Origin: a virus
DNA length: 41,095 bases
IMG/VR virus record: IMGVR_UViG_3300021602_000012
Span: 1 to 41,095 of that record
Reading direction: 5' to 3' (one strand)
Positions within the stretch are counted from its first letter, which is position 1. Each line of letters begins with the position of its first letter. The translations under genes were made by a program, and so were the position numbers. A model generated the notes under the pieces. It searched no databases and was not told where the DNA came from. It saw only the letters and a list, made by a program, of their open reading frames with translations. This document shows positions 819 through 30,164 of this stretch, in pieces.

Positions 819-1198
819 AGAATCCTTTTCGTCCTCAGAAAGTTACCATAAAAGTATTGCACCCGGCCTAATATAACATTTCGGTAGTGAAGATGGGACG
901 AAGTTGTGTTTTTATTTTTCGGCACTTCTTCGCAAAGAATTACAGTTCGTTGATGGCGCTCTTTGTTGACCAAGTGCTTCCAAGTCACCCAAGTCACATT
1001 AAAGACAACATTAAAGACAACATTGGCCTTAAGAAGGTATACCAAAATAGTTGAAACAAACAAAAAAGAAAAAAGTAGTGTACTATTTCGGTCGTGACAA
1101 ATCTTTCCTCAACGACAACAAGCAAAAGCAGAGCGTTTATGGTCCATTCGATTTCACTGGCCCAGGGGGCCACAAACTCCCGGTCAGACACTAGGCAA
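819..1198. other. Intergenic control region with short direct repeats
   Basis: About 380 bases separate the leftward 471-818 gene from the rightward repressor gene. The region contains the leftward promoter, tandem 9-mers CCAAGTCAC (980-988, 989-997) and tandem 12-mers ACATTAAAGACA (996-1007, 1008-1019). An A-rich tract lies at about 1055-1075. Two imperfect copies of the regulatory element, AGTAGTG (1074-1080) and CGGTCGTG (1089-1096), flank a TACTAT box (1081-1086). These could be the repressor's own promoter and operators. No gene is supported here. Confidence 0.5.
870..889 (-). promoter_or_regulatory. Leftward promoter with CACTACCG element
   Basis: On the minus strand a TATATT -10 (870-875) is preceded, six bases upstream, by CACTACCG (882-889). 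The two stronger leftward promoters at 7.23 and 11.81 kb have the same order: CTACC(G), a short A/C/G-rich gap, then a TATAAT-like box. No good -35 is visible, so the promoter may need an activator or be weak. It would serve the 471-818 gene and the gene downstream of it. Confidence 0.5.
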
Positions 1199-1642
1199 AT
1201 GAACATGCTGAAAACGACTTCGCAAATTCGGTACGAGAATTTTGATCGCCAATACGAGGCGTTCAAAGTAGAGGTGTGGCGCAGCTTTCCTGACGAACCT
1301 GAAAAGGGAATGCTCAGGAAATTCGCGGTGAAGGCGGGGCTCACAGACGCCTATTGCAGCCACATTAAATGCCGGCGTAAGCCAATGGGTGCGCGCACTG
1401 CCAGGAAGGTTGAAGGAGCTCTCGGGCTGCCTGCGAACTTCATGGACCATGACCATGCCGGCCTTTCGGCCTCTGCGGTTGGCGCCCTCACAAACCCGGT
1501 AACAACTGCCGCCGGCGTGCTGGTGCCGCCAGGGTCGCAAGACTTGGTTGACATGATGTTGGCCATGTTTGAAATCAGCCCCGAACAAACGCGCGCTGAA
1601 ATCACGCGCCTGGTGCTGGCGGCGTTGAAAAAACCCAAGTAG
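1199..1642 (+). CDS. HTH phage repressor / Cro-CI-type regulator
   Basis: From ATG 1199 the protein is 147 residues (MNMLKTTSQIRYENFDRQYE). An in-frame ATG at 1094 would add 35 unconvincing residues; AGG a few bases before 1199 supports the shorter start. The N-terminal half, with EKGMLRKFAVKAGL followed by TDAYCSHIKCRRKPMGARTA, matches a helix-turn-helix seen in small phage and plasmid regulators. The C-terminal half (LVDMMLAMFEISPEQTRAEITRLVLAAL) looks like a helical oligomerisation module. No LexA/CI-type Ser-Lys protease is seen. It is a lone gene against the leftward early genes, ended by a terminator at 1666. It is the best candidate to bind the CACTACC elements (inference). Confidence 0.75.
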   Translation: MNMLKTTSQIRYENFDRQYEAFKVEVWRSFPDEPEKGMLRKFAVKAGLTDAYCSHIKCRRKPMGARTARKVEGALGLPANFMDHDHAGLSASAVGALTNPVTTAAGVLVPPGSQDLVDMMLAMFEISPEQTRAEITRLVLAALKKPK

Positions 1643-1665
1643 CGCGGGCGAACCGATGACTACCA

Positions 1666-1691
1666 AAAGGGGGCTTAGGCTCCCTTTTTTT
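1666..1691 (+). terminator. Rho-independent terminator after the repressor gene
   Basis: A 9-bp stem (AAAGGGGGC / GCTCCCTTT, one G-T pair), TTAG loop and a T run, 23 bases after the repressor stop codon. Confidence 0.9.
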
Positions 1692-1722
1692 GATCTAGAT
1701 TAGGGTAACCCCCTAGGTGTTT

Positions 1723-1751
1723 TTATTACAAATCGGTAGGTAACGTACAGT
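1723..1751 (+). promoter_or_regulatory. Possible rightward promoter with CGGTAGG element
   Basis: TTATTA (1723-1728) and TACAGT (1746-1751) are 17 bases apart, and TCGGTAGG lies in the spacer (about 1733-1740). This is similar to the 12.1-kb promoter, where TCGGTAGTG sits between the boxes. The hexamers are weak. It would serve the small ORF at 1811. Confidence 0.35.
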
Positions 1752-1810
1752 AAAAGTCGTAAACTTTCGTCCCCGGCAATTAATACTGTTTCTGTTTCCC
1801 AGGAGGCTGT

Positions 1811-3365: not shown

Positions 3366-3380
3366 GGTGATGTTTCCAAT

Positions 3381-3521
3381 TCAAAAGGGTAGTGGTTGCT
3401 TGTCAATCCATTTGTTGTAGTTGTTGCGCCAGCGCCGGGCCCGCCACTCTTTGCGCCCGGCCAGGGCGGCGGCCCGCACGGCAGCGCCCAGGGCAGAGAA
3501 AAACTCGCGTGTAGCTTTCAT
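3381..3521 (-). CDS. Short basic protein, 46 aa
   Basis: A short gene between the 3518 and 2883 genes, starting at ATG 3521 in an ATGA overlap with the stop of the upstream gene. The product begins MKATREFFSALGAAVRAAAL and continues AGRKEWRARRWRNNYNKWID, ending QPLPF. It is strongly basic and probably helical. Coupling, the absence of any other gene in this interval and codon use like its neighbours support it. The function is unknown. A CACTACC element (3388-3394) lies at its 3' end, upstream of the next gene. Confidence 0.65.
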   Translation of the reverse strand: MKATREFFSALGAAVRAAALAGRKEWRARRWRNNYNKWIDKQPLPF

Positions 3522-4057: not shown

Positions 4058-4072
4058 GTGAGCTCCTAAAAT

Positions 4073-4079
4073 GGTAGTG
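4073..4079 (-). promoter_or_regulatory. CACTACC element in leader of 3518-4057 gene
   Basis: CACTACC on the minus strand, a few bases upstream of the AGGAGC ribosome-binding site. The leader CACTACCATTTTAGGAGC nearly repeats at 5469-5486. Confidence 0.45.
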
Positions 4080-4086
4080 GACAAAG

Positions 4087-4479: not shown

Positions 4480-4495
4480 GATTTGCTTTCGGTTT

Positions 4496-4530
4496 GGTGA
4501 AGGGTGAAAGGTGAAAGGTGAAAGGTGAAA
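4496..4530. repeat. Five tandem heptamers GGTGAAA/G
   Basis: One GGTGAAG (4496-4502) followed by four perfect GGTGAAA units (4503-4530). They lie in the short gap between the stop of the 4539-5462 gene and the start of the 4087-4479 gene. Copy-number change here would alter the leader length of the downstream gene. Confidence 0.9.
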
Positions 4531-4538
4531 GGGTCGGG

Positions 4539-5462
4539 TTATTTGCTGGCTTCGATTTCGGCCAGCTTTGCGTTTACGAATGTTGCGGCTGTTGCGGCGT
4601 CGGTGCAGGTTTGAAAACCCATCACATCGCCGTCCTGTTTGTACGGCGTCGTTTCCGGCCATACTGCGGCGCCGAAAGCCGAATGAATTTTCGCGTCAAT
4701 GTGAGCCTTAACTGCAAAGCCGACGTGACGCGGAAAACCCATGATCGTCATGCTGCTGGCCAGCGTTGAAAGGTCGAGCGGTGAGCGCGCCTGTTTCAAC
4801 GTGGTCGTCATCATGAAGTTTGGCGTTTTGTATTTCGGGTTCAGGCCAACACTGGCATACGCTGCAATAATTTCTACGGCATAACCGGCGTCGGTCAGGA
4901 GCTTGGTAAGCGCCAGGGCGGCAACCCCGCGCCATGCCTGCTCTGTTGCCAGAACTTTGTGATTCCCGTTTATTGCGACAACCAACCGGATGATTTTTGG
5001 AGCGCGGCCAGCTTGGCGCGTGGTGCGGCTAAATGCCCGGTCAATCGTGCCGGCATAAACGCGCTGCATGTCCACACTGTCGCCAGCGTCGCCCCAGGCG
5101 CGCCGGCGCAGGCGCGAAACCGGCGGCTTAACGCTGGCGGGCAGCTTGGCCAACAGGGCTTCAATCATGTCAATGCCGGGCGCGTAGCCGTGGCTTAGGG
5201 CGCTCATTACGGCAGCCGTGCCCCCTTCAATGCCGTGCCAGGCCAGGGCGCCTTTTTTCTTAATCGCAAAGTCGCCGTTGATTGATTCCAGGGTGTCGGC
5301 GTTTTCGTTCACTTTGGGCAGCCGGCCAACAGCCGCGGCCAGCATGTCTTCCAGGCTGTCGAAATGCGCAGAGTGCCATTTAGCGGCGCCGGGTGTTGTG
5401 TCGGGTGTTGTGGCCAGCGGTGCCGCGCGTCCGGTTGTTGCAATTTGAAGGGCTGTTGTCAT
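4539..5462 (-). CDS. DUF7192-like (VWA-like) partner of the AAA+ ATPase
   Basis: 307 residues from ATG 5462 behind AGGAGC. After a Thr/Pro-rich leader, HFDSLEDMLAAAVG starts the conserved part. Then come AWHGIEGGTAAVMSALSHGY, a RLRRRAWGDAGDSVDMQRVY block and WRGVAALALTKLLTDAGYAV. These match a family found beside phage MoxR-type ATPases (DUF7192, probably a degenerate von Willebrand A fold). MoxR-VWA pairs work as chaperone and adaptor to remodel a target complex. The immediate downstream position and shared leader element imply joint action with the 5506-7182 ATPase. The target is unknown. The family call is from memory of motifs, not a search. Confidence 0.7.
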   Translation of the reverse strand: MTTALQIATTGRAAPLATTPDTTPGAAKWHSAHFDSLEDMLAAAVGRLPKVNENADTLESINGDFAIKKKGALAWHGIEGGTAAVMSALSHGYAPGIDMIEALLAKLPASVKPPVSRLRRRAWGDAGDSVDMQRVYAGTIDRAFSRTTRQAGRAPKIIRLVVAINGNHKVLATEQAWRGVAALALTKLLTDAGYAVEIIAAYASVGLNPKYKTPNFMMTTTLKQARSPLDLSTLASSMTIMGFPRHVGFAVKAHIDAKIHSAFGAAVWPETTPYKQDGDVMGFQTCTDAATAATFVNAKLAEIEASK

Positions 5463-5479
5463 GGTAATGCTCCTGAAAT

Positions 5480-5486
5480 GGTAGTG
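5480..5486 (-). promoter_or_regulatory. CACTACC element between the ATPase and partner genes
   Basis: CACTACC on the minus strand in the 43-base gap between the AAA+ gene and its partner, five bases before AGGAGC (5469-5474). Same leader layout as at 4073. Confidence 0.45.
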
Positions 5487-5505
5487 GTGACAGGCAAATC
5501 AATAA

Positions 5506-7182
5506 TCAATAAATTCCGGCTTTGCTGCGCTCGTCACGGGTCCAACCGCTCAGCAGGTCGTTTTTAATTTCGGCAATCGGAATGCCAGCCTTTCGGGCGG
5601 CAATGCCTTTTTGCAGGGCGCGCGTTGAAACAATCCGGTTCAGCTTAGCGGTCGCCACTTTGGCGCGCAGGCTTTTCACCCAGGCGTGAAACTCCTTGCA
5701 ATCGTCGCCAGCGTCGCCCAGGTCCGCGGTCCACTTCGTTACGTGCGCACTCTTGCCAACCATGCGCGCTTCAAAGGCTTCGTCATAGCCCATTTCGACA
5801 ACGTAGAAGCGGTCCAGTGTGGCGCCGTCGAGCACGTTGGCACTGGCGTAAACGTAGTCCATACCGGTGCCAAAAGTATTGCAGGCGGCCAGCACGGCGG
5901 CGTCCTTGCCGCGGCGCACTGTGGGCGCTTTGCGGCGCTGTGGCACGTTCAGGTAATCGTTGGCCAGGGCGCTATTGCCAATCATAAGCATATTGGCGTC
6001 GCCGCGGTCCATTTCGTCAAACAGGAAAACCGAATTGCCGCCTTCGTACAGGTCCACAAATTGGCTCGAAACGTACTCGAATTTTCCAGCGTCCCCGACA
6101 GGCATCAACCAGCCGATCAATTGCGCTTCGCTGGCGCCAGCGGTAAAGCTGAGAGAACCAAAATCGCGGCCCAGGGCGCGCGCCACTTGTTCGGCCAGGT
6201 AGGTTTTGCCAGAGCCCGCAGGGCCAACCAACATCACATTCAGACCCGCACTGGTTAGGCGCAGCACTTTTTCAAACATGGGGTGGAAAAATTCGCCGTC
6301 AAGTTTCGCCACAATTTCGCCGGCTGTTTTCACGGTCAGCGTTACGGCTTGGCTTTTGTCGGCGGCCAGGGCGGAAACTTGCGCAGCCAGGGAAACAAAA
6401 TTCAGGGCGGCTTTTGCTTGCGTTTCTATGGTGTCATTGCGCAGGGTTTGCAGGTCTTCCACAACTGGTGCAACGTGCTCAGCTACCAGGGCGCCAACAG
6501 CGGCCAGGTCAAGCGGCGCGGCGGCGGTAGCGACGCCCATGGCGGCCATAATGGCAGCGGCCAGGGCGGCGGCCTTGTCGGTCGCTGCGGTCGCTGGTGC
6601 GGTCGGTGCGGCCACGGGCACGGGCACGGGCACAACAGCCGGCGCCGGCTTCGGCACTGGTGCCGGCTTGGCCACGGGTGCCGGGTCGGCCACGGGTGCC
6701 GGGTCGGCGTACGCTTCCATAACTTTGGCGGCGGGCTCGGTAAACCATGGGTCAGCTTCCACAACAGCCACAACAGCCACAACAGCCGCAGGCGCCACGT
6801 CGGCAAGCTTTGCCACGGCAGCGTCAACCAGGGCGTCAACCGTGCACGTGCGGCCCTCTGCGGCGCGCTTGGCCCGTATTGCGGGCACGTCGGCAACAGC
6901 CGCGGCAACGTCGAACGGCTTAATTTTTCCGCCGGCAATGTATATCAGGTCCCCCAGGGCGCCGTCAAAATCAGGGTGTGCCAGCATGGCGTCAAACAGT
7001 TCAGCATGCGGGCGGGCGGCCAGCATAATGCGCATTTCGGGCAGCGTTACGCGGTCCCAATCGGCCTTAACTCCGAAACCGCGCAGCAACTCAGCGCAGC
7101 CGGCTTTGTTCACTTCGCGCAGGTTGAAAATGGCGCCAGCCGGAACTGCTGTTTTTTCTGTTGCTTTCACTTCCATGTCCAT
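5506..7182 (-). CDS. MoxR/CobS-type AAA+ ATPase
   Basis: 558 residues from ATG 7182, ribosome-binding site AAGGA. The N-terminal third is phage-specific, followed by a Pro-Ala-Val linker (about residues 158-200). The AAA+ module is at about 300-560: Walker A GPAGSGKT (320-327), Walker B VFLFDEMD (385-392), sensor-1 region AACNT (about 432-436) and an ATLDRF arginine-finger region (about 454-459). The order fits the MoxR/CbbQ/CobS branch. Such ATPases remodel protein complexes with a VWA-type partner, here probably the next gene. It is the first gene after the 7.23-kb promoter. The linker is encoded by short GC-rich repeats that give long artefactual ORFs on the other strand. Confidence 0.9.
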   Translation of the reverse strand: MDMEVKATEKTAVPAGAIFNLREVNKAGCAELLRGFGVKADWDRVTLPEMRIMLAARPHAELFDAMLAHPDFDGALGDLIYIAGGKIKPFDVAAAVADVPAIRAKRAAEGRTCTVDALVDAAVAKLADVAPAAVVAVVAVVEADPWFTEPAAKVMEAYADPAPVADPAPVAKPAPVPKPAPAVVPVPVPVAAPTAPATAATDKAAALAAAIMAAMGVATAAAPLDLAAVGALVAEHVAPVVEDLQTLRNDTIETQAKAALNFVSLAAQVSALAADKSQAVTLTVKTAGEIVAKLDGEFFHPMFEKVLRLTSAGLNVMLVGPAGSGKTYLAEQVARALGRDFGSLSFTAGASEAQLIGWLMPVGDAGKFEYVSSQFVDLYEGGNSVFLFDEMDRGDANMLMIGNSALANDYLNVPQRRKAPTVRRGKDAAVLAACNTFGTGMDYVYASANVLDGATLDRFYVVEMGYDEAFEARMVGKSAHVTKWTADLGDAGDDCKEFHAWVKSLRAKVATAKLNRIVSTRALQKGIAARKAGIPIAEIKNDLLSGWTRDERSKAGIY

Positions 7183-7199: not shown

Positions 7200-7214
7200 T
7201 ACGGAAGCAAAATC

Positions 7215-7257
7215 GCTACCGTGTCGCTATTATATACCGTTTCGGTAGCGGTCATAA
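7215..7257 (-). promoter_or_regulatory. Leftward promoter P2 inside an inverted-repeat operator
   Basis: The minus strand reads TTATGA (7252-7257), a 17-base spacer and TATAAT (7229-7234). GCTACCG (7215-7221) and CGGTAGC (7243-7249) form an inverted repeat around the -10 box, so a bound protein would block it. The core AAACGGTATATAATA is identical to that of P1 at 11.81 kb. The promoter lies in the 3' end of the 7230-7442 gene, whose TAA stop is part of the -10 box. It drives the AAA+ operon. Confidence 0.75.
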
Positions 7258-10592: not shown

Positions 10593-11000
10593 TCAAAATG
10601 AAGGGTCGCGGTAGTGGTCGCGCTCACCAATGCGCAGGCCGGCGCCGTTGTATTTGCAAAGCCTGCCGGTGTTTCTGTTGATAAACACGGCCACCCAGGC
10701 GCCGGCTTTCTTGTTGAAGCGGAAAAGGCTCGGGCTGCCGGTGCCAGGCGCGTAGGCGTATTCGGCGCTGCCGTCATGGGAACTACCCGCCACAACAGTC
10801 GTTTTGTCGGCTGTTGCTTCAATCTCCCACTGCCACACCTTTGACCCGGTGAGCTCAGTCACCTTGGTGATGGTGCAGGCGGTGCGGTCAGTCCAGCCCA
10901 GGAATGTGGCGCCCATGCCAACAGTCGGCGCCGGTTGGCCAACAGTCGCCCGGCTGTAAATGTGGTTTACCAGGCTGTTGGTTTGTATTCCGAGTTTCAT
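10593..11000 (-). CDS. Conserved phage protein, 135 aa, unknown function
   Basis: It starts MKLGIQTNSLVNHIYSRATV at ATG 11000 with GGAG in the end of the upstream gene. The pattern SLVNHxYSRAT...PTVGMGAT...W.DR.A.TI...SHDGSAEYxYxP...CKYNGAGLRIGERDHYRDPSF belongs to a conserved small family found in many phages and prophages of proteobacteria. Its conserved end, LRIGER..Y.DP.F, is clearly visible. No activity is known. The HYR codons at the end create a CACTACC element (10610-10616) just upstream of the next gene. Confidence 0.85.
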   Translation of the reverse strand: MKLGIQTNSLVNHIYSRATVGQPAPTVGMGATFLGWTDRTACTITKVTELTGSKVWQWEIEATADKTTVVAGSSHDGSAEYAYAPGTGSPSLFRFNKKAGAWVAVFINRNTGRLCKYNGAGLRIGERDHYRDPSF

Positions 11001-11766: not shown

Positions 11767-11799
11767 GGTGTTTTGTCCTTTGTGTACGGCGGCCAAATC

Positions 11800-11841
11800 G
11801 CTACCGTGTAAGTATTATATACCGTTTAGGTAGCGCTGCAA
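11800..11841 (-). promoter_or_regulatory. Leftward promoter P1 inside an inverted-repeat operator
   Basis: On the minus strand TTGCAG (11836-11841), a 16-base spacer and a perfect TATAAT (11814-11819). GCTACC (in 11800-11806) and GGTAGC (11829-11834) flank the -10 box as an inverted repeat. The core matches P2 at 7.23 kb. It drives the 11766 to 7230 early operon and is probably the main early promoter. Confidence 0.8.
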
Positions 11842-11910: not shown

Positions 11911-12072
11911 TAGTTTTGGCGCCAGGCGGGCAGACGCGCCGGCTTCACCGGTAGTATTTCGAGCTTAAATGTCGGCGGGGCTTTGGTGCTTGTTTGCGGG
12001 CGCTATCGCTGGAAAACCCGTAGGGCTTGGCTAGATGCGTTGAGGCTGTAGAAAATAAAGACGCGTTACGTG
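11911..12072. other. Rest of divergent control region
   Basis: No gene is supported. Partial copies of the regulatory element, GGTAGT, occur at about 11909-11914 and 11950-11955 in the same orientation as those at 12082 and 12101. The region otherwise lacks clear promoter boxes. Confidence 0.45.
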
Positions 12073-12109
12073 TTGCATGTTTCGGTAGTGAACTATAAAA
12101 TCGGTAGTG
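12073..12109 (+). promoter_or_regulatory. Rightward promoter with two direct operator copies
   Basis: TTGCAT (12073-12078), a 17-base spacer and TAAAAT (12096-12101). TCGGTAGTG occurs twice in direct orientation, at 12082-12090 (spacer) and 12101-12109 (start-site region), exactly 19 bases apart. Binding would sterically block RNA polymerase. It drives the PAPS-reductase-like gene 34 bases downstream. Confidence 0.75.
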
Positions 12110-12142: not shown

Positions 12143-12892
12143 ATGGTTGCAGCAAACAACACAGAGTTAATCGCGGAAATCCGCGAACGAACGCCGAACA
12201 TTCTTGTCAGTTTCAGCCGCGGCAAGGACGGCATCGCCTCATACCTTCGGGTACGGGACGAATTTGAGCGGGTGATACCGTATTACTACGACTTCATTCC
12301 TGGCCTTGAATTCGTTGAGGACTCGCTGGCCTATTACGAAAGGCTCATGGGCCAGCGCATTGCGCGCTTCCCGAGCTACGGCATGAGCGTAATGATTCGG
12401 GGCCTGGTGTACCAACCGCCAGACAGAGTTGACACCCTGGATTGGATGCAGTTCCCCGAATGGGACAACAACCACATTCAGGAATCAGTTTGCACCGACG
12501 CCGGGCTGGACTACAAAACAACGTACAACGCGGTCGGCGTGAGGGCCAAGGACTCAGCCATGCGGGCCATGGTCATTAAAAAGTACGGCGCCGTGAACCA
12601 CAAGCGCCGGGTGTTCTATCCCATCTTCGATTTTTCCAAGGACGAACTGATTGACCTGATTGCACGTTCAGGCTGGAAGCTGCCGATTGACTACCGGTAT
12701 TTCAGCGCCAGCTTCGACGGTTTGTACATTCGCTACCTGTACCCCATCAAGCTCTATTTTCCGAGAGACTACCAGCGCATTCTCGAATGGTTCCCGCTGG
12801 CCGAGCTCGAATGCTACCGCTACGAGGCCGCCATTAAACGAGGCCACCAGCCCGCTTATGTGCGCCCACCTGGCCCGCACCCATACCTATAA
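12143..12892 (+). CDS. PAPS-reductase-family PP-loop protein
   Basis: 249 residues from ATG 12143, behind GGGAGCACC. The PP-loop motif at about residues 22-30 reads VSFSRGKDG, in place of the usual SGGKDS. The rest (RVIPYYYDFIPGLEFVEDSL, QESVCTDAGL, VGVRAKDSAMR, RRVFYPIFDFSKDELIDLI, FSASFDGLYIRYLYPI) matches a phage subfamily of the phosphoadenosine-phosphosulfate reductase superfamily. These use ATP or adenylylated substrates. Phage roles (DNA or nucleoside sulfur modification, defence evasion) are speculative. The variant loop may alter nucleotide use. It is first in a five-gene cassette with its own promoter. Confidence 0.85.
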   Translation: MVAANNTELIAEIRERTPNILVSFSRGKDGIASYLRVRDEFERVIPYYYDFIPGLEFVEDSLAYYERLMGQRIARFPSYGMSVMIRGLVYQPPDRVDTLDWMQFPEWDNNHIQESVCTDAGLDYKTTYNAVGVRAKDSAMRAMVIKKYGAVNHKRRVFYPIFDFSKDELIDLIARSGWKLPIDYRYFSASFDGLYIRYLYPIKLYFPRDYQRILEWFPLAELECYRYEAAIKRGHQPAYVRPPGPHPYL

Positions 12893-14017: not shown

Positions 14018-14241
14018 AACGATTTTTTGCACAATTCTGCCGAAAACAGACCCCAATTGAGGCCGCCATTGGCGAATTGGTCGAAGCCGAGCACGCTTTA
14101 CTCAAAGCTCAGACCGGGGGGGAATGGGCCGGCGCGCATATTGAATACAACCAATTGCGTGTTGCGCGGCTGCGTCAGTACGTTATCGATGTGTCCAAGG
14201 GCAACGAAGCCAGAGCAAAACAATCCATAAATGGTAGTTGA
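14014..14241 (+). CDS. Small helical protein, last gene of the PAPS cassette
   Basis: 75 residues from ATG 14014 (ATGA overlap): MKRFFAQFCRKQTPIEAAIG, then ELVEAEHALLKAQTGGEWAG and HIEYNQLRVARLRQYVIDVS. This EAERALL...Y....RLRYL-like pattern occurs in short phage proteins of unknown function. The 3' end overlaps the start of a strong promoter at 14238. Confidence 0.7.
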   Translation: MKRFFAQFCRKQTPIEAAIGELVEAEHALLKAQTGGEWAGAHIEYNQLRVARLRQYVIDVSKGNEARAKQSINGS

Positions 14242-14266
14242 CACGGCGCACCACTACCTTTACATT
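14238..14266 (+). promoter_or_regulatory. Strong rightward promoter with CACTACC in spacer
   Basis: Perfect TTGACA (14238-14243), 17-base spacer and TACATT (14261-14266). CACTACC (14252-14258) is inside the spacer next to the -10 box, as at the leftward promoters. It is the best -35 in the window. Confidence 0.8.
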
Positions 14267-14271
14267 AGTGA

Positions 14272-14793: not shown

Positions 14794-14810
14794 CACTACC
14801 GAAACGATAG
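14794..14810 (+). promoter_or_regulatory. CACTACCGAAACGATAG element upstream of terminase
   Basis: The 17-mer is identical to the one at 30148-30164 and one mismatch from 21340-21356. It lies in the 102-base gap before the small terminase gene. Confidence 0.6.
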
Positions 14811-16864: not shown

Positions 16865-19800
16865 ATGTCAGATCAAAACCCGGTCCCGACCAAAACGCAA
16901 TTTAGCGAAGGTACGAGAAAACCGCTCGACACGAATTTGATTCAGCGCGCCATGGCCGGGCTGAAATACGCATTTACCGGCAAGCCACCGGAAACAGCCT
17001 GGTTCGGCCCGCTTGAGCCCATGGCGCCACTGGTTGCAGACGCCCAACAGGACAGCGTACGCGCTCGCATGTTGGACTACCCCACTGGCTACAACTTGCG
17101 CGTGCCCCCGCGCTCTGGTGAGGCGGTAACGTTCTCGCAAATGCGCGCCCTGGCCGATTCGTGCGACGTGCTGCGCCTGGTGATTGAAACCCGCAAAGAC
17201 CAAATGGCGCTGCAAACATTCAGCGTCGTGAACCAGGACGAAGACGTGCAGCCTGACGACCGCTGCAAAGAGGTCGAGGATTTTTTCAAACTGCCCGACG
17301 GCGAAAACGACTTTGTGGCATGGCAGCGCATGATTCTTGAGGACATGTTTGTGCTGGACGCTGTGGCCATTTATCCGTGGAAGTACAACGACGGCACGCT
17401 GTACCGGTTGGACATCATGGACGGGGCGACTATTAAGCGCGTAATCAACGACCAGGGGCGCACACCCATGCCGCCCGATCCCGCGTATCAGCAGATTTTG
17501 AAGGGCATCCCTACCAGCGACTACACCAGTGACGAATTGATTTACAACGTGCGCAACAAGCGCAGCAACCGGATTTATGGCTACTCGCCTGTCGAGCAAA
17601 TCATTGTCACGGTCAACACGGCGCTGCGTCGCACTATGCACCAGTTGCAGTTTTACACCGAGGGCAGCACGCCTGACATGCTCATGTCGTGCCCGCCTGA
17701 TTGGAATATGGATCAGGTGCGAGACTTCAATGAATGGTGGAATTCCATGCTGGCCGGCAACACTGCCGCTCGCCGCAAGGGGTTATTTATTCCGCATGGC
17801 GTGGCGCCCATCAACACCAAAGAAGGCGCGCTAAAGGATCAGTATGACGAATGGCTGGCGCGCATTGTCTGCTACGCATTCAGCGTGAGCCCGACGCCGT
17901 TTGTGGCTCAAGTGAACAGGGCAACAGCCGAGTCAGCACAGGAAGCCGCACTCATGGAAGGCCTGCACCCGATCATGTTGTGGATGCGCGGCTTACTCGA
18001 TTCAACTATCTGGAAGCACTTTGGCTACACCGACCTGTGCATCAAGTGGAACGAGCAAAAAACACAAGACCCGCAAGTCCAAGCAGCGATTGACGATCAG
18101 TGCGTGCGCAACGGGACGGCGACCATTAACGAAGTGCGTCAGCGCAGGGGCGAGGAACCAGTGCCAGGAGGCGACAAGGCCATTGTCATCATCGGCACCG
18201 GTCCTGTTGACTTTCAGCGCGCTCTGGAAGCCAACACGACCACACTGGAAAACTCCGCGAAACCACCAGAGCCGCCGCCTGCCCCTGGGTTGGGTGGCTC
18301 ACCGGGTGAGCCTGGGCAACCTGGGCAACAGCCCGGGCGAGTAACGGCAACAGCCGCAACAGCCGCAACAGCCAAAATGGAAAAAGGCGGTAGCGCAGCA
18401 AAAAAAGCGCTCGGCGCAGCTTCGCGTATTGATCGGGATCGCCCGGCAGTCGCGCAGTTGCGCCGCGTGTTGAAGCGCAAGGTGGCCAAGGGGCTTGCCA
18501 AGGCTTCGGCCAAAGCAATCGCCAGCATCGTTGCGGCCTATGCCGCCGCACCAAAGCCGGTGCGCCCGGTTGACACTTCGGTTGACAAATTCGAGAAGTA
18601 CGACGACAACCAGGAGCGCGGCAAAGACGGGAAATGGACAAAATCCGGCGGCCAGCTTGGCAGCAATGAGGGCGGTGTTTTTCATTCACCCGGGGGTGAC
18701 AAGCATTACGTGAAATTCCCGGCCAAGGCTGGCCAGATCAAGGCCGAGGAAGCTGCCGATCAGATTTACGCACTCATGGGTGTTGGCACCATGGAGCACA
18801 AAGAGACTGACGTGAACGGCAAGCCTGCCAGCGCCAGCCAGTGGAAGGAAGTCACCCCGTTGGGCGGCAAGGGCTGGCAGAAGCTCACCGACGCACAAGT
18901 GCAACAGGCGGCCAATTCCTACGTGGCCAGCGCGCTCACAAAAAATTGGGACGTGGTTGGCCTTGTGTACGACAACATGGGCAAGGACAAGGCCGGCAAC
19001 CTGCACATCATGGACACGGGTGGCAGTTTCCAATATCGCGCGCAGGGTGGGCCTAAAGATTTTGGAAAGGACGCCACTGCCGACCTGCACGCCATGCTTG
19101 ACAAACAGTATCCGGCAGGCAAAGTGTTTGGGCCGCTGTTGGCCAGCCATCCCGAGGCATTCAAGGCTGCGGTGAAGGAAATGAACTCCATTCCTGAATC
19201 CAAACTCAAAGCGGCCACTAAGGGAATGGAAGCATCGCACCCTGGCACCACGGCTGCGCTGTTGGCACGTCGCGACAGCATCACCGAGTTTTTTGCATCG
19301 CAAACAGCCAAATTGGGCAAGGCGCTCATGCCTGACTATGTGACCGACAACACCAGGATCAGAAAGGGTGGGACCGAGTACGACAAAGAGCTTGCCGACG
19401 CCATCCTGAAACAGTTGGACCTGTCTGGTTTCGAGGAAATGACACCCGAAATTCAAGCCATCATTGAAAAGGTGTTGCAGGACTCAGGTGTCGAGGCGCT
19501 GTCGCAGGTAGGCATTGACGGCGCCGACATGCTTTCACTGGTGAACGAAAACGCCGTTGAGTACGCCAAAGAGCGGGCCGCCGAGCTTGTCACCAACATC
19601 AGCGAGAGCACGCGCGAAATGCTGCGCTCAGACATTGAGGATGCCATGCAAGAGGGCATGAGCAACGGCGATCTGGCTGACCTGCTTGCCGACAACTACG
19701 GTTTCAGCGACGACCGGGCGGAAATGATTGCCCGCACCGAAACAGCCTACGCCGACGTGCAGGGCAACCTGAAAGCGTACGAGGCCAGCGGCGTGGTGGC

Positions 19801-21292
19801 GCAAAAGCGCTGGATCACGGGCGAGGGGTGCTGCCCCAAGTGCGACGAGCTCGACGGCAAGGTGATTGACCTGGACGAATCGTTTGACGCCGACGGCGAG
19901 GAAATCGACGGGCCGCCATTCCATCCGAATTGCCGCTGCGACATCGTGCCGATTGTGGACAACAACGACAACACGGACAGCGGCGATAACGGCGATAACG
20001 GCGAGGCCTCAGATCAGGCTGACATGATTGAAATGGCTGCGCGCTCGCGCGCTATTGCCGCGTCCTGGCGCCGGGCTGACACGTACAACCTGCTCGACAA
20101 AAGGTATGCCGACGATCCCGCCATGCTTGCCATCATTCAGAAGGCGTACGACCCTGACCAGCCGCGCGACGAACATGGGCGCTGGTTGGGAGCCAGCACG
20201 TACGATCACAAACAGCAAGTTACTGAGGGTAAGTTGTGGCCAAACCACAATGTCGGCAAAGCAACGTCATGGAAATCGCCTGGAACCAAAGAGGCCAAGG
20301 CCATGCTCAAGCAAATGAAGGAAGCCGAGATTCTGCACGACGAAAACATTGCAGAGGCCGCGCAATATCAAACATACGAGCAAACCAAATCCGCACTTGA
20401 GGATGCCAATGTAGAGGCGCACACGGGGTTCACCGCAAAAGAGGCAATGGACAAGGTGAAAGGGGCGTTCTATGCCCACCAGGGAAGCACAAGTGCAGTG
20501 CAATCCAGTGCTTTCAAGACTCTGGACTTTGCGCTTGACGCGGCTGCACTGCCGATCACCCAGGACATTGTTTTGTTTCGAGGCCTCGGACTGTCGTCGT
20601 CCAAAGTTGACCAAATGATTGCCGATATTGGCGCCGGAAAGTGCCCGGTATTCGAGGGCCACGACAACAAATACACATGCACGTCGTCGGCTCGATACAT
20701 TGGGGAAAAATTCGCTCAGAACAATTCCAATGGCCACAGCAGTATTGCATGCCTGTTTCATGTGCTGTTGCCGGAAGGGTCAACAGCCATGTTTTTGCAG
20801 GGGTTCACAAAGGCGTTCACCTATGAGCGCGAATTTGCCCTGGGGCGTGGATCAAGGATGCAGATTTTTGGTCATAAGGAGTACACCACACCGGACGGTC
20901 GGCGGACCATTGAGTTTTTGTCAAAATACGTCGGATCAGTTTCAGACGATAAGGCAAGTGAAATGCGAGAAGCCGCAAGAAAAGACGACCAAACAGGCGA
21001 CATTGCCAAGGTGCATGGTGACGCTCACAAACTCATGCCGGTGCATCCCGACGGCAGGCCGGCTGGCGATCCGCACGCGGAAATGCCGGGCGACAGGCCA
21101 GAGGCGTTTGACCCAAAACTGACGGCAGACGAATTCCACAAGCGCTTCGGTGGCGAGTTTGAAGACGACATTGCAGCCGTTTATTACGACGACGGCACGC
21201 AGAGTTACGGGAAACTCAAAGACGGCTACAAGCCAGCCGAGGGCTACGTCGTCAATACTGACGGTATGGTAGTCAAGGCCGATAAACAGTAG
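16865..21292 (+). CDS. Portal - kinase-like - MuF - ADP-ribosyltransferase polyprotein
   Basis: 1475 residues in one frame. About 1-460: portal (VIETRKDQMALQTF, YGYSPVEQIIVTVNTALRR, NRATAESAQEAALMEG). About 461-505: Pro/Gly/Ala linker; 505-565 basic. About 579-800: HipA/PI-kinase-like domain with K617 (HYVKFP), NWDVVGLVYDN (694-704) and D717 in MDTGGS. About 820-1030: MuF/SPP1 gp7 head-morphogenesis domain ending with Cys/His ligands (GEGCCPKC 986-993; HPNCRC 1020-1025). About 1095-1360: ADP-ribosyltransferase with R1239 (LFRGLG), TCTSSA (1271-1276) and EREF (1321-1324), the R-S-E triad. The portal forms the DNA gateway. The added domains may be injected and modify host proteins (inference from MuF and polyvalent-protein families). 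Confidence 0.9.
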   Translation: MSDQNPVPTKTQFSEGTRKPLDTNLIQRAMAGLKYAFTGKPPETAWFGPLEPMAPLVADAQQDSVRARMLDYPTGYNLRVPPRSGEAVTFSQMRALADSCDVLRLVIETRKDQMALQTFSVVNQDEDVQPDDRCKEVEDFFKLPDGENDFVAWQRMILEDMFVLDAVAIYPWKYNDGTLYRLDIMDGATIKRVINDQGRTPMPPDPAYQQILKGIPTSDYTSDELIYNVRNKRSNRIYGYSPVEQIIVTVNTALRRTMHQLQFYTEGSTPDMLMSCPPDWNMDQVRDFNEWWNSMLAGNTAARRKGLFIPHGVAPINTKEGALKDQYDEWLARIVCYAFSVSPTPFVAQVNRATAESAQEAALMEGLHPIMLWMRGLLDSTIWKHFGYTDLCIKWNEQKTQDPQVQAAIDDQCVRNGTATINEVRQRRGEEPVPGGDKAIVIIGTGPVDFQRALEANTTTLENSAKPPEPPPAPGLGGSPGEPGQPGQQPGRVTATAATAATAKMEKGGSAAKKALGAASRIDRDRPAVAQLRRVLKRKVAKGLAKASAKAIASIVAAYAAAPKPVRPVDTSVDKFEKYDDNQERGKDGKWTKSGGQLGSNEGGVFHSPGGDKHYVKFPAKAGQIKAEEAADQIYALMGVGTMEHKETDVNGKPASASQWKEVTPLGGKGWQKLTDAQVQQAANSYVASALTKNWDVVGLVYDNMGKDKAGNLHIMDTGGSFQYRAQGGPKDFGKDATADLHAMLDKQYPAGKVFGPLLASHPEAFKAAVKEMNSIPESKLKAATKGMEASHPGTTAALLARRDSITEFFASQTAKLGKALMPDYVTDNTRIRKGGTEYDKELADAILKQLDLSGFEEMTPEIQAIIEKVLQDSGVEALSQVGIDGADMLSLVNENAVEYAKERAAELVTNISESTREMLRSDIEDAMQEGMSNGDLADLLADNYGFSDDRAEMIARTETAYADVQGNLKAYEASGVVAQKRWITGEGCCPKCDELDGKVIDLDESFDADGEEIDGPPFHPNCRCDIVPIVDNNDNTDSGDNGDNGEASDQADMIEMAARSRAIAASWRRADTYNLLDKRYADDPAMLAIIQKAYDPDQPRDEHGRWLGASTYDHKQQVTEGKLWPNHNVGKATSWKSPGTKEAKAMLKQMKEAEILHDENIAEAAQYQTYEQTKSALEDANVEAHTGFTAKEAMDKVKGAFYAHQGSTSAVQSSAFKTLDFALDAAALPITQDIVLFRGLGLSSSKVDQMIADIGAGKCPVFEGHDNKYTCTSSARYIGEKFAQNNSNGHSSIACLFHVLLPEGSTAMFLQGFTKAFTYEREFALGRGSRMQIFGHKEYTTPDGRRTIEFLSKYVGSVSDDKASEMREAARKDDQTGDIAKVHGDAHKLMPVHPDGRPAGDPHAEMPGDRPEAFDPKLTADEFHKRFGGEFEDDIAAVYYDDGTQSYGKLKDGYKPAEGYVVNTDGMVVKADKQ

Positions 21293-21339: not shown

Positions 21340-21357
21340 CACTACCAAAACGATAGG
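21340..21357 (+). promoter_or_regulatory. CACTACCAAAACGATAGG element before fibre gene
   Basis: One mismatch from the 14794 and 30148 copies. It ends nine bases before the fibre-gene ATG at 21367, and its GATAGG may double as the ribosome-binding site. Confidence 0.6.
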
Positions 21358-21366
21358 ATTCAAATC

Positions 21367-24723: not shown

Positions 24724-24843
24724 ATGTGAAATCAAGCACGCCACTGTTGAAGCAATGATAAAAATATGCTGATACACTACTGTAACAGTCGTGAATGTTG
24801 TACTATTCGCCCAATTTAACAGTCGATTGACCATTGAACAGCC
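24724..24843 (+). promoter_or_regulatory. Intergenic leader before the protease, with CACTACT element
   Basis: Contains CACTACTGTAACAGTCG at 24775-24791, a one-mismatch CACTACC copy. A TTGAAG (24747-24752) and TGATAC (24770-24775) pair with 17-base spacing could be a promoter. Two further TACTAT/AACAGTCG words follow. No gene is seen. Confidence 0.4.
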
Positions 24844-26520
24844 ATGAACGCAACAGCCGCATCAAGTCGTAGTCAGGAAGTCAGGCGGTTCGCCGTCATT
24901 TCCAAAGTCAACGACGAGGAACGCATTGTTGAAGGCTACGCTTCAACGACCGACCTGGACAACCAGGGCGAGCGCATCACGAAGCAGGCCATGGCGAACG
25001 CTCTGCCGGATTACATGAAATTCGCGAATGTTCGCGAAATGCACCAGCCCTCTGCTGTTGGCGTCTGCAAAAGCGCCACTGTTGACGACACTGGCATGTA
25101 CATATCGGCCCACGTTGTTGACGACGACGCTTGGAAAAAGGTTAAAGCCGGCGTGTACAAGGGTTTTTCTATTGGCGGTCGGTCCACGCAAAAAATCGAC
25201 AAGGTAATCAGTGGCATGCGGCTCACTGAAATCTCTCTGGTTGACCGACCGGCCAATCCCGAATGTGTAATTGAACTCTGGAAAGGTGATGGCATGTCCC
25301 CCACAATCAACAAAGAAACGCAGCGTGCAGCCGTGCTCGAACTGGCTGACATGCTTGACAAAGGCAATGTTGACGCTGTGAGCCTGTTGGCTTTGGCCAA
25401 AGGTGACGCGCTTGTTGTCGAAAATCCGACATCGGCTCCCGCTGCCGAAGTTTTGCCTGTAACCACTACCGCAACGGTAGTCAACGCAGAAGGAACCAAA
25501 GATGCTGCTGCAAATGCTGAGCCTGCTGTTCTCGCTGTGTCTGCTGTCGATCCTGTCGCTTCTGGCGCTGATGTTGCTGTCGGCGCTGTGGATGCTGTTT
25601 CGAGCGAGCCCGCCCCTGTTGCCAAGGCCGAAGTCATCGACCCGGCCCCCGTGGCTGTAGTGGCTGTAGCGGCTGCGGCGGCTACGGCGGCTACGGTGGT
25701 TCCGGTGGCTCCGGTGGCTCCGGTGATTAAAAAGGGCATGAACACAGCCGCGCAGCTTGGGCTGTTGATTAAACAGTTGGCCTACCTCACCCAAAACCAG
25801 AACGACGAAACCGCGCGCGAGAAGGACAACTCGCCCGTGGCGGCCATGATGCACGATCTGGTGGTGCAGGCCGGCAAGGTGCTGGTAGCCATGGTTACAG
25901 AGGAAACGGCAGAGCTCGCTTCCAACGTGGACCCTGATGCCGATCCCGAGGACAAGGAATACGTGAGCTCTGCGCCCACGGTGTCGTCCATGAGCTATGC
26001 CGACCAGGGTGGGGACATTGCCAAGGGCGGCGCCAAGTTTTCAGCCGACACCCAGGCTGCGCTGTCTGACATTCACAAATGCTTCAAGAGTGGCAGCGAG
26101 CTTATGGACAAACTCGGATATGCCGCAGCGGCACCGAACCCTGACGCCGCAGAAGCCGGCGGAATGCGTGCAGCCAAGGCTGCCGACGCTGGCGACATTG
26201 CCAAGTCCGAGCTCAATGCGGCTGTTGCCGACCGCGACGCCGCGCTGGCCAAAGTTGCAGGCCTCGAAACGGCCGCAGCCGATTTGACCAAACGCCTGGA
26301 CGAAATGGAAAAGCGGCTGGCCAAGGTGCCGACCGCCCCGCGCGGCAGGCTCATGGTTGTCCAGAAGTCCGACGACGTGGGAGGCACTGACGACGCACCC
26401 GCAACAGCAACAACCGGCCCGATCATGAAAAGTGACGGCACGGTCGATCAAGTAGCAACAGCCGAAAACGAAATGCGCAAGGTGTTTGCCTCGCGTCAGG
26501 TCGTGGCAATCCGGCGCTAA
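24844..26520 (+). CDS. XkdF-type prohead protease with scaffold-like tail
   Basis: 558 residues. The first about 150 match the XkdF/S78-2 serine protease family: RIVEGYASTTDLDNQGERIT, VREMHQPSAVG (H67), YKGFSIGGR (S109) and ISLVDRPANPECVIELWK. The His-Ser pair is the probable catalytic core. Then a long low-complexity Ala/Val stretch (about 195-300) and helical segments (AVADRDAALAKVAGLETAAA, LTKRLDEMEKRLAKV) typical of a capsid scaffold. It processes the prohead and may act as internal scaffold. The Ala-rich region holds a palindromic operator-like site and a nested ORF. Confidence 0.85.
   Translation: MNATAASSRSQEVRRFAVISKVNDEERIVEGYASTTDLDNQGERITKQAMANALPDYMKFANVREMHQPSAVGVCKSATVDDTGMYISAHVVDDDAWKKVKAGVYKGFSIGGRSTQKIDKVISGMRLTEISLVDRPANPECVIELWKGDGMSPTINKETQRAAVLELADMLDKGNVDAVSLLALAKGDALVVENPTSAPAAEVLPVTTTATVVNAEGTKDAAANAEPAVLAVSAVDPVASGADVAVGAVDAVSSEPAPVAKAEVIDPAPVAVVAVAAAAATAATVVPVAPVAPVIKKGMNTAAQLGLLIKQLAYLTQNQNDETAREKDNSPVAAMMHDLVVQAGKVLVAMVTEETAELASNVDPDADPEDKEYVSSAPTVSSMSYADQGGDIAKGGAKFSADTQAALSDIHKCFKSGSELMDKLGYAAAAPNPDAAEAGGMRAAKAADAGDIAKSELNAAVADRDAALAKVAGLETAAADLTKRLDEMEKRLAKVPTAPRGRLMVVQKSDDVGGTDDAPATATTGPIMKSDGTVDQVATAENEMRKVFASRQVVAIRR
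25465..25481. promoter_or_regulatory. Perfect palindrome of the regulatory element inside the protease gene
   Basis: ACTACCG, three bases, CGGTAGT: a perfect 7+3+7 inverted repeat of the CACTACC core, within coding sequence. It fits a dimeric protein site. Confidence 0.55.
25502..25660 (+). CDS. Possible nested membrane-protein ORF (+1 frame in protease)
   Basis: ATG 25502 with AAGGA eight bases upstream opens a 52-residue +1-frame ORF: MLLQMLSLLFSLCLLSILSL continuing to a long Leu-rich hydrophobic helix (about 1-35), then a basic Pro-rich tail (RASPPLLPRPKSSTRPPWL). Topology suits an embedded small membrane protein. Caution: a run of GCT/GTT codons in the host frame automatically yields CTG/TTG (Leu) in this frame, so it may be an artefact of low complexity. 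No homologue is recognised. Confidence 0.25.
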   Translation: MLLQMLSLLFSLCLLSILSLLALMLLSALWMLFRASPPLLPRPKSSTRPPWL

Positions 26521-26601: not shown

Positions 26602-26608
26602 CACTACC
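26602..26608 (+). promoter_or_regulatory. CACTACC element upstream of the capsid gene
   Basis: CACTACCTTTTGAACC lies 36 bases before the capsid ATG, in a 124-base gap, sense orientation. No clear promoter boxes are seen. Confidence 0.45.
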
Positions 26609-26644
26609 TTTTGAACCTGAACCATTTTCTTTTGGGACCGAATC

Positions 26645-28270: not shown

Positions 28271-28294
28271 AACACCGCAAAGCGATGTAGCAAG

Positions 28295-28316
28295 GGGGCG
28301 GGCTTCGGCCCGTCCC
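28295..28316 (+). terminator. Strong TTCG hairpin after the capsid gene
   Basis: Nine-bp GC stem GGGGCGGGC / GCCCGTCCC with a TTCG tetraloop and no T run. It probably stabilises or attenuates the capsid mRNA rather than ending it completely. Confidence 0.7.
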
Positions 28317-28348
28317 TATTCCCACCAAATTTCAGACAAAGGCCAATC

Positions 28349-28654
28349 ATGAAAATGCAAGCACCAGAAGGCGCGACCGGGGTGAGTCACGACGGCGTGA
28401 ATTACGAGGTTGTGAACGGCGTCATTACGGTCCCGCATGACGCGCAAAGCTCCCTTGAGTCCTTTGGCTATACCCCGATCCTCGAAGGGTCGGAAGACGC
28501 GGCTGACGTTGCCGTAGAGGCCGCTGTTGTAGAAAAGCGCCGTGGCCGCCCAAGCAAGGCTGAGCTCGCAGCGCGACTTGTAGCGGATCAACAAATTGAA
28601 GCCGCCGCAGCAGATCAAGTGGCAGCAGATCAAGCCGCACTGGCCAGCGAGTAA
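28349..28654 (+). CDS. Small head protein with AT-hook-like motif
   Basis: 101 residues. N-terminus MKMQAPEGATGVSHDGVNYE, NGVITVPHDAQSSLESFGYT is a beta-hairpin pattern common to small proteins between capsid and connector genes. Residues about 62-70 read EKRRGRPSK, an AT-hook-like RGRP core, followed by a helical Ala/Gln tail. It may contact packaged DNA or act as a cement or connector accessory. The motif could also be chance in a basic linker. Confidence 0.75.
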   Translation: MKMQAPEGATGVSHDGVNYEVVNGVITVPHDAQSSLESFGYTPILEGSEDAADVAVEAAVVEKRRGRPSKAELAARLVADQQIEAAAADQVAADQAALASE

Positions 28655-28663
28655 CCAAGTGTC

Positions 28664-29221
28664 ATGGCGGCAGGCGACCTCACCACATTGGCAGCAGTCA
28701 AGGATTGGCTGCAAATAAGCGGCTACACCGATGACGCGCTGTTGACGCGCCTGATCGCCAATTGCAGCGCCGGAATTCAAAACTATTTGAACCGGAATTT
28801 CGCTCTGACCAATTACGACGAAGTGCGCAGCGGCACGGGCACGCGGCGCATGCTGTTCGCAAATTACCCGGCCACTTCAATTTCAGCCGTGACTGTTGAC
28901 GGCGCCGACGTTCAAAAGTCCCCCGACGGAATTCATTTGCCAGGGTGGGTAAACGACTCTCGCGGAATCATCATGATTGGCGGCGTGTGGACCGCAGGCG
29001 TCAACAACGTGACGTTTTCGTACACCGCAGGCTTTGCCGAGCCGCCTGCGGACATTACCCAGGCGTGCATTGATTGGGTCAGCTTCATTTACCGTCGCCG
29101 CGACCGCATTGGCCACGCCAGCAAGAGCGTGCAGGGTGAAACTGTGAGCTACATCACAAGCGCCATGCCGTCCGAAGTCGGGTTTGCACTGTCTCCACAC
29201 AAAAAGGTGGTGCCACTGTGA
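28664..29221 (+). CDS. Head-tail connector, HK97 gp6-like
   Basis: 185 residues. LTTLAAVKDWLQISGYTDDA, LLTRLIANCSAGIQNYLNRN, then a beta part (NYPATSISAVTVDGADVQKS, VTFSYTAGFAEPPADITQAC) and a helical end IDWVSFIYRRRDRIGHASKS. This is the gp6/gp15-type connector that rings the portal. Its stop overlaps the GTG of the next gene. Confidence 0.85.
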   Translation: MAAGDLTTLAAVKDWLQISGYTDDALLTRLIANCSAGIQNYLNRNFALTNYDEVRSGTGTRRMLFANYPATSISAVTVDGADVQKSPDGIHLPGWVNDSRGIIMIGGVWTAGVNNVTFSYTAGFAEPPADITQACIDWVSFIYRRRDRIGHASKSVQGETVSYITSAMPSEVGFALSPHKKVVPL

Positions 29222-29685
29222 AGATTACCGGCAAGGTCGAGGGCGGCAACGCCCTGATCCAGAGCACCAACCTGCTGAGCTCGCAAATGATTGAGCGGCT
29301 GCGCAAAGTCGTGGCCAAGCTGGCCGTCGAGTTGGTGGCCAAGGTCAAGTCCGAAAAACTCAGCGACCAAGTGCTGCACGTTCGCACGGGCCGCCTGCGC
29401 CGGTCGATCACGTTTCGGTTGAACAACAGCATGCCCAACACGGCCACGGCCACGGTGGGCACCAACGTGAGCTATGCACGCATTCACGAATACGGCTTCA
29501 AAGGGCCGGTGAACGTGCGCACGTACATGCGCAAAGCGGCCAATGGCGGCGAAGTTGTGGTGAAGGCTCACGTGCGCAATGTGAACATGCCAGAGCGGAG
29601 TTTTTTGCGCTCGGCGCTCGGTGAAATGAAGGGCGAAATCATGCAGCGCATGAACGACGCCATCGTCGGGAGGGTGACGGCATGA
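29218..29685 (+). CDS. HK97 gp10-like head-tail joining protein
   Basis: 155 residues from GTG 29218, overlapping the previous TGA. HVRTGRLRRSITFRLNNSMP and ATVGTNVSYARIHEYGFKGP are the hallmark of gp10-like proteins; PERSFLRSALGEMKGEIMQR ends it. It forms part of the neck between connector and tail. ATGA overlap with the next gene. Confidence 0.9.
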   Translation: MKITGKVEGGNALIQSTNLLSSQMIERLRKVVAKLAVELVAKVKSEKLSDQVLHVRTGRLRRSITFRLNNSMPNTATATVGTNVSYARIHEYGFKGPVNVRTYMRKAANGGEVVVKAHVRNVNMPERSFLRSALGEMKGEIMQRMNDAIVGRVTA

Positions 29686-30125
29686 ACCGCGAAGCAATTG
29701 CCGGCGCGCTTTTTGGCAGGCTGTCGGCCGCGACCGGATTTTCTGGCACGGCGTCATTCAAGACCGCCAGCCGTAGATTCAAGCTGTTTTCTGACGTGTC
29801 GCCAGCGGACCAGCCCGCGCTGTTCCTAATCCAGCGCGGCGAAAACGTGAGCACCGTTCCAGGCCAACCGAGCGTGTACGTGCTTTCGTTTGACGTTGCC
29901 ATTTATGCGCACACCGGTGGCGATGTGAATGTGCCACCGGCATCCATCATCAATCCGCTCCTTGACGCCGTAACCACAGCCCTGGCGCCCGAGGCCGTTT
30001 CCAACAAACAAACCCTTGGCGGGCTTGTGCAGCACGCATGGGTCGAGGGCGAGATTCAAACCGACGAGGGCCTGCTTCAACAGCAGGGCTACGCCCTGGT
30101 CCCCATCAAAGTCAAGGCCGTGTAG
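29682..30125 (+). CDS. Tail terminator-like protein
   Basis: 147 residues, MNREAIAGALFGRLSAATGF. The middle RFKLFSDVSPADQPALFLIQ and VYVLSFDVAIYAHTGGDVNV, NPLLDAVTTALAPEA and the end QHAWVEGEIQTDEGLLQQQG match minor tail or terminator proteins that cap the tail tube. It precedes the major tail protein, as in other siphophages. Confidence 0.8.
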   Translation: MNREAIAGALFGRLSAATGFSGTASFKTASRRFKLFSDVSPADQPALFLIQRGENVSTVPGQPSVYVLSFDVAIYAHTGGDVNVPPASIINPLLDAVTTALAPEAVSNKQTLGGLVQHAWVEGEIQTDEGLLQQQGYALVPIKVKAV

Positions 30126-30147
30126 CCGGTCATTTTTTAACCTTCAC

Positions 30148-30164
30148 CACTACCGAAACGATAG
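30148..30164 (+). promoter_or_regulatory. CACTACCGAAACGATAG element before the major tail gene
   Basis: Identical to the 14794 copy. It lies in the 48-base gap and runs into the AGGAGAG ribosome-binding site of the tail gene. Confidence 0.6.

Follow-up and report, generated by a model that had tools for sequence, protein, structure and literature searches.

What are the CACTACC elements that recur between genes along the 41,095-nt virus record IMGVR_UViG_3300021602_000012 of IMG/VR? This record of an uncultured phage, here called the window in its full length, falls in the class without end repeats and is possibly incomplete. An initial annotation read the elements as a stoperator-like regulon recalling the L5 type, with a late-promoter element or a translation-leader element as alternatives. 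In the window, CACTACC was over-represented, placed at gene starts and oriented; it formed half of a 19-bp dyad and overlapped promoter boxes, and a gene for a helix-turn-helix (HTH) protein (1199–1642) was nearby. We hypothesized that the elements are sites of one repressor, acting as operators on initiation at promoters and as stoperator-like sites on elongation at gene junctions, with the 1199–1642 protein as the most likely ligand (probability about 0.52). Both alternatives of the initial annotation appeared less likely.

The genome plan was of siphovirus type. Small genes made up the leftward arm (from 11.8 down to about 2 kb, together with 818 to 133), and the rightward arm encoded terminase, a portal–morphogenesis fusion, protease, capsid and tail proteins. 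In the corrected and checked gene model, 93.5% of the window was coding and 6.5% non-coding. CACTACC was present in 13 exact copies, compared with a mean of 2.22 and a maximum of 6 in 100 shuffles. Ten of the 13 were non-coding (P = 3e-10), and two further copies overlapped gene ends. Eight were located at most 60 nt upstream of a same-strand start codon (0.5 expected, P = 6e-9; antisense equivalent 2), 15–53 nt ahead of the start and often just before the Shine–Dalgarno sequence. The copy-to-start distance was variable overall (15–64 nt). CACTACC was the strongest start-associated 7-mer of all, and remained so with automatic gene calls. Gaps of at least 25 nt held CACTACCG with no more than one mismatch in 11 of 15 cases. 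Beyond 14.7 kb in the right arm, a sense copy was found in five of the six gaps of at least 40 nt, preceding the genes in the small-terminase (TerS) position, for the fibre, the protease (a variant copy) and the capsid, and in the major-tail position. The sole exception was the gap after the capsid gene (28271–28348). This gap contains a GC-rich hairpin (GGGGCGGGCTTCGGCCCGTCCC, identified by eye), which may be a terminator or a processing site.

Relative to the nearest gene, 11 of the 13 exact copies were in sense. Nine copies were outside promoters (3388, 4073, 5480, 10610, 14794, 21340, 25464, 26602 and 30148), eight of them at junctions and one, 25464, within a gene. All nine were in sense, four on the minus strand in the left arm and five on the plus strand in the right arm (sign test, approximately 0.002), and the orientation switched where the two arms meet. 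This flip would also suit an oriented replication or packaging signal reading outward from the divergent region near 12 kb. However, the placement at gene starts and the dyad symmetry are unexpected for such a signal, and the sites spanned 883 to 30148, with no exact copies past 30.2 kb although the DNA runs to 41 kb; we consider it very improbable. Chance or functionless repeats could be proposed for what are merely 13 exact copies of a 7-mer, but about 2.2 were expected, and dyad, placement and orientation are each improbable by chance. The set is non-random, and this last explanation is hardly credible.

Enrichment over shuffled controls, intergenic placement and sense bias, as proposed in the initial annotation, were confirmed, as was the overlap of copies 3388 and 10610 with gene 3′ ends. 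All the sites it listed were present, the one given at 882 starting at 883. Three exact copies, 12084(−), 12103(−) and 25464(+, inside the head-protease gene), had been missed together with the dyad symmetry, and the one-mismatch sites at 1089, 7214, 11799, 11908 and 11949 were also absent from the list. Variant sites were CACTACT at 24775, CGCTACC at 7243 and 11828, and AACTACC (weak) at 7193. The description of CACTACC as often embedded in the 17-mer CACTACCGAAACGATAG was too strong: exact matches were found only at 14794 and 30148, and six matches with up to three mismatches (0.02 expected). A widened position weight matrix was trained on its own hits and drew in coding matches, and its counts were not used as evidence. 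Altogether, the dispersed set comprises about 19 copies, in gene gaps and inside promoters, mostly pointing with transcription.

The element makes up one side of a pseudo-palindrome of 19 bp, CACTACCG-N3-CGGTAGTG, in which one half is conserved and the other degenerate. When the inverted half GGTAGTG was slid along the 13 copies, a single peak was obtained at spacing 5 (40 matches versus 21 expected, z = 4.7), a score that none of 2000 shuffles attained across 30 offsets. The full dyad with at most three mismatches occurred seven times (0.09 expected). In the variant at 24775 (CACTACTGTAACAGTCGTG), both sides were altered and the symmetry was kept. The best dyad of the window (one mismatch, 25464–25482) falls where the head-protease gene encodes a stretch rich in Val, Thr and Ala. 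The seeming asymmetry of the element is a preference as to which half stays conserved. One conserved and one degenerate half are common in phage repressor operators. Since the element is a 19-bp pseudo-palindrome, a dimeric CI-like protein would fit it better than a monomer of the L5 type.

The eight sense copies shortly ahead of start codons could also be read as leader elements in the RNA that serve translation or mRNA processing. Cluster K mycobacteriophages have comparable Start-Associated Sequences, which are oriented repeats immediately ahead of start codons (PMC3203893). Those sequences contain AGGAG and stand 3–7 nt from the start, whereas the window site has no Shine–Dalgarno sequence and its spacing is loose. 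The RNA hairpin was not kept, with three or fewer of seven right-arm matches in 7 of the 13 copies, and copies that are upstream of or within −10/−35 boxes, or antisense (12084, 12103), cannot act in that mRNA. A leader role is improbable.

Several sites coincided with promoter-like sequences, listed here as read from the sequence unless another basis is given:

871–889, minus strand: site over a TATATT −10-like box upstream of the 471–818 gene, in the divergent gap of 380 bp next to the HTH gene
1078–1096, minus strand: degenerate site CACGACCG with one mismatch, some 100 bp ahead of the HTH gene, a possible autoregulatory operator
7214–7232, plus strand: dyad CGCTACCG, downstream flank of the leftward promoter preceding the AAA ATPase gene
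7229–7234, minus strand: TATAAT of this leftward promoter, with a dyad on each side
7232–7250, minus strand: dyad CGCTACCGAAACGGTAT, filling the spacer upstream of TATAAT
11799–11817, plus strand: dyad downstream of the TATAAT of the 11.81-kb leftward promoter, whose cassette nearly duplicates that at 7.23 kb
11814–11819, minus strand: TATAAT of the 11.81-kb leftward promoter
11817–11835, minus strand: dyad CGCTACCTAAACGGTAT in the spacer of the 11.81-kb promoter
12072–12090, minus strand: site in a possible rightward promoter region (TTGCAT...TATAAA; promoter by eye)
12091–12109, minus strand: second site, 19 bp from the first, in the same TTGCAT...TATAAA region
14238–14266, plus strand: rightward promoter TTGACA-17-TACATT with 10 of 12 consensus matches (promoter scan)
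14252–14270, plus strand: site CACTACCTTTACATTAGTG in the spacer and −10 box of the TTGACA-17-TACATT promoter

The leftward cassettes at 7.23 and 11.81 kb were near-identical (CGCTACC[G/T]AAACGGTA-TATAAT-...-ACACGGTAGCG), with CGCTACC replacing CACTACC. In each, one dyad filled the −35/−10 spacer and another followed the −10 box. At 12.08–12.11 kb, two copies 19 bp apart flanked TATAAA ahead of the first rightward gene. The proposed overlap of copies with recognisable promoters was upheld at the sequence level, with dyads flanking TATAAT at 7.23 and 11.81 kb and a copy in the spacer at 14.24 kb. Lambda-type CI/Cro operators are likewise pseudo-palindromes of 17–19 bp with one better half, at paired promoters beside a CI-like gene; they are clustered at two promoters, unlike the window sites, which extend over structural genes. 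The promoter-overlapping sites (0.88, 7.23, 11.81, approximately 12.09 and 14.25 kb) would act as operators that block initiation, and for this half of the mechanism the sequence support is good.

A terminator with a 13-bp stem and a T run was located at 14377–14406, about 110 bp past the 14.24-kb promoter and before the late genes. The arrangement at 14238–14406 resembles lambda PR′-tR′ and suggests that late genes may be controlled by antitermination.

The remaining sites, read in the same way, were not at recognised promoters:

3376–3394, minus strand: junction site over the preceding gene's 3′ end, 22 nt ahead of the next start
4061–4079, minus strand: junction site 15 nt ahead of a start
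5468–5486, minus strand: junction site between the AAA ATPase and DUF7192 genes, 17 nt ahead of a start (also from family matches)
10598–10616, minus strand: junction site over a gene 3′ end, 40 nt ahead of the next start
14794–14812, plus strand: junction site before the gene in the small-terminase position, a dyad with two mismatches
21340–21358, plus strand: junction site before the tail-fibre-like gene
24775–24793, plus strand: variant dyad before the head-protease gene
25464–25482, plus strand: the best dyad, inside the head-protease gene
26602–26620, plus strand: junction site before the major-capsid-like gene
30148–30166, plus strand: junction site before the gene in the major-tail-protein position

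The junction copies sit inside long operons. Since scans for promoter-type and terminator-type sequences at these copies gave nothing convincing, they are probably neither ordinary sigma-70 promoters nor intrinsic terminators. A leader at 4480–4538 (minus strand), with tandem CCTTTCA repeats ending in CCTTCACCAAACCGAAAGC, resembled the other leaders and had no CACTACC.

The same repressor could instead bind operators only, the junction copies lying on cryptic or weak promoters so that initiation is controlled everywhere, as may hold for the C1 operators of P1. Consistent with this, several copies overlap promoters, TTGACA is found just upstream of the copies at 3388 and 14252, and P1 has 22 operators dispersed over its genome in a Gram-negative host (PMC8546580). 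The P1 site is 17 bp, asymmetric and AT-rich, with no sequence likeness to the window site. Against this explanation, an operator needs no strict sense orientation at junctions, and the scans gave no convincing promoter-like pair there. Dispersed operators of the P1 type are the nearest alternative mechanism, and one that we consider unlikely.

A phage-specific promoter or activator element was also considered, in which a block of a pyrimidine-rich stretch, CACTACC and GAAACGATAG is read by a phage activator or modified polymerase that starts early and late units. Its sense orientation, its conserved upstream 14 nt and its copies ahead of the TerS-position, fibre, protease, capsid and major-tail-position genes would all be expected of such an element. 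Yet it was present at early-arm and late-arm genes alike, its distance to the start varied, and the copy in the clear promoters was placed between good −10 boxes or beyond them. No gene for an activator or a polymerase was recognised. This explanation is rather improbable.

Under the favoured explanation, all sites would be bound by one phage-encoded, probably dimeric, CI-like repressor. At junctions in the long leftward and rightward operons, the bound repressor would act as at stoperators and halt RNA polymerase escaping from an incompletely blocked promoter. Genes for capsid, tail and terminase and those of the early arm would thereby be kept silent in the repressed state. The elongation block is suggested by the orientation of the sites, the absence of clear promoters and the likeness to real stoperators. 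Three points here are inferred: the HTH protein is the factor bound at the sites, its presence there arrests elongation, and the phage has a temperate lifestyle.

The candidate repressor is an HTH protein of 147 amino acids (1199–1642, plus strand; phrog and PDB matches), proposed as ligand from its location and type. Its HTH stretch matched phrog_5736, a transcriptional regulator (E = 1.2e-6), and phrog_12107, a transcriptional repressor (E = 7.8e-5); there was no Pfam match. In a phmmer search of all PDB chains, the best matches, including 7nkv, were weak (E = 0.13) and named 'Phage repressor protein CI', and no stoperator-type repressor was among the matches up to E = 5, by sequence only. 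A weak phage match was the CI-like repressor of Psychrobacter phage pOW20-A. A single-sequence structure model (pLDDT 47) was too poor for a fold search. No other repressor candidates were recognised, and most small left-arm genes had no known family. The gene facing away from the HTH gene in divergent orientation (471–818, minus strand) encodes a small protein whose N-terminal half resembles a Cro/CI-type HTH by eye. A Cro-like role was considered from this inspection and was given no support by BLASTP, hidden Markov model, PDB and phage searches; its structure model was too poor to be informative.

L5-type stoperators, known from the cluster A mycobacteriophages L5, Bxb1 and D29, are two to three dozen repressor sites distributed genome-wide, in intergenic gaps and at gene ends, in one orientation to transcription and in part within promoters (PMC3029335, PMC6550527, PMC9283540). 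As a yardstick, the D29 genome was scored with the published L5 consensus. Its stoperators were in one orientation in 24 of 25 cases and non-coding in 16 of 25, some were beside capsid and tail genes, and no clear dyad was found. The window sites resembled this type in their many copies over both arms (13 exact plus one-mismatch copies), their location mostly in short gaps or at gene ends, and their single orientation outside promoters (9/9). Judged by sequence, the dyads flanking TATAAT at 7.23 and 11.81 kb may be operators in early promoters. The L5 site, by contrast, is 13 bp, asymmetric and recognised by a monomeric repressor that combines an HTH with a Stoperator domain, whereas the window has a 19-bp dyad and fewer sites, and the 1199–1642 protein had no similarity to the L5/TipsytheTRex repressor family detectable by sequence search. 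Because the layout agrees and the asymmetric site and repressor family do not, the window sites are described as working like stoperators but falling outside the L5 type. The stoperator claim of the initial annotation thus stood for dispersal, orientation, intergenic placement, the nearby HTH gene and the D29-like profile, and failed for the asymmetric L5-type site.

T1-like phages (T1, TLS and Stevie) carry oriented intergenic repeats of 21–22 bp upstream of starts, which have been likened to stoperators (PMC11447400, PMC4319613) and whose function is listed as an open question (PMC11447400). The window sites are likewise oriented, intergenic and upstream of starts, but the T1-type consensus ATAGCACNNNTTGNTAAAA (ATAGCAC...TTGnTAAAA) is unrelated to them. 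The TLS repeats were in sense in 20 of 23 cases, at a near-constant distance of about 56 nt to the start, with no clear dyad. The layout was common to the window, D29 and TLS, and of the three only the window had a clear dyad. R4-type stoperators of Streptomyces phages, intergenic repressor sites thought to block elongation (PMC10276819), belong to an actinobacterial host and are likened to the window sites by layout and proposed action only.

Several observations weigh against silencing by a repressor of this kind. TLS is a virulent phage with similar oriented intergenic repeats (PMC11447400), so the oriented layout alone is no proof of lysogenic silencing. The window proteins that were scanned included no recognisable integrase, ParABS or lysis function, in a record that may be incomplete. 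The 14 nt upstream of the junction sites (with the 24775 variant) were alike, at 5.6 matches per pair versus 3.5 ± 0.2 in shuffles. A bare operator leaves this likeness unexplained; a pyrimidine-rich leader or an extended site is possible. The motif was absent from about 110 related loci, including relatives by terminase (≤61% identity) and capsid (≤72%). The HTH protein had no relatives in the viral or genome contigs searched. Since that protein itself has no found relative, the absence of the motif in distant relatives is uninformative rather than refuting, and would be expected of fast-diverging immunity sites.

Searches for the motif beyond the window gave no second dispersed set of it. 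The 17-mer matched six viral contigs, none with such a set, and the full dyad matched eight contigs, with one dyad each and no dispersed oriented set. A junction-window k-mer test in terminase, capsid and ATPase relatives was too weak, missing even CACTACC in the window, and a start-associated 7-mer test in relatives returned almost only Shine–Dalgarno-bearing or low-complexity words. Two terminase relatives, L010 and L011, were rejected as analogues, as their ATCTATTG forms a local cluster; its iterated copies (L010, 5184–5240; L011, 4273–4322) surround a divergent promoter region, with TATAAT in L010, and are likely an operator cluster. L173 was rejected as well, its CTACC..GGTAG dyads being clustered, iteron-like, with a spacing of 8. 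Heavily repeated 8-mers were observed in contigs of ATPase relatives: CTTTAAAG in L183, L191 and L196, GTTTAAAC in L181 and L182, and TCTAGGAG in L171. In L196, CTTTAAAG was present in 18 of 24 gene-junction windows, versus 7–8 in shuffles.

No phage record matched the first 12 kb in a megablast search. The closest terminases and capsid proteins had up to 61% and 72% identity, respectively. As the capsid relatives were found in bacterial genome records (Alkanindiges, Herbaspirillum, Methylobacterium and several alphaproteobacterial metagenome-assembled genomes), the phage lineage is probably proteobacterial. A single 1475-amino-acid frame (16865–21292), with a portal match at residues 59–553 and a head-morphogenesis match at approximately 800–1190, constitutes the portal–morphogenesis fusion. 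At 4539–7182, the AAA ATPase gene, which is CobS/MoxR-like (phrog_249), adjoins the DUF7192 gene; the two are also close together in Acinetobacter phages, e.g., Mithridates and AM24. The first rightward gene (12143–12892) is PAPS-reductase-like, and glycosyltransferase family 2 and methyltransferase domains are fused in one frame at 39448–40719.

So far, silencing by stoperators has been established mainly among actinobacterial phages, in a few of their groups. We tentatively raise the possibility, itself doubtful, that repressor–stoperator silencing of a whole genome arose independently outside them, with a pseudo-palindromic, dimer-type operator whose better half always points the same way at junctions, so that a CI-like dimer would serve as an orientation-dependent elongation block. 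If true, the combination of unrelated genes, oriented layout, dyad operator and adjacent CI-like gene would mean that the strategy works without the special two-domain repressor of L5, and the system would be compact, consisting of one small protein and a 19-bp site.

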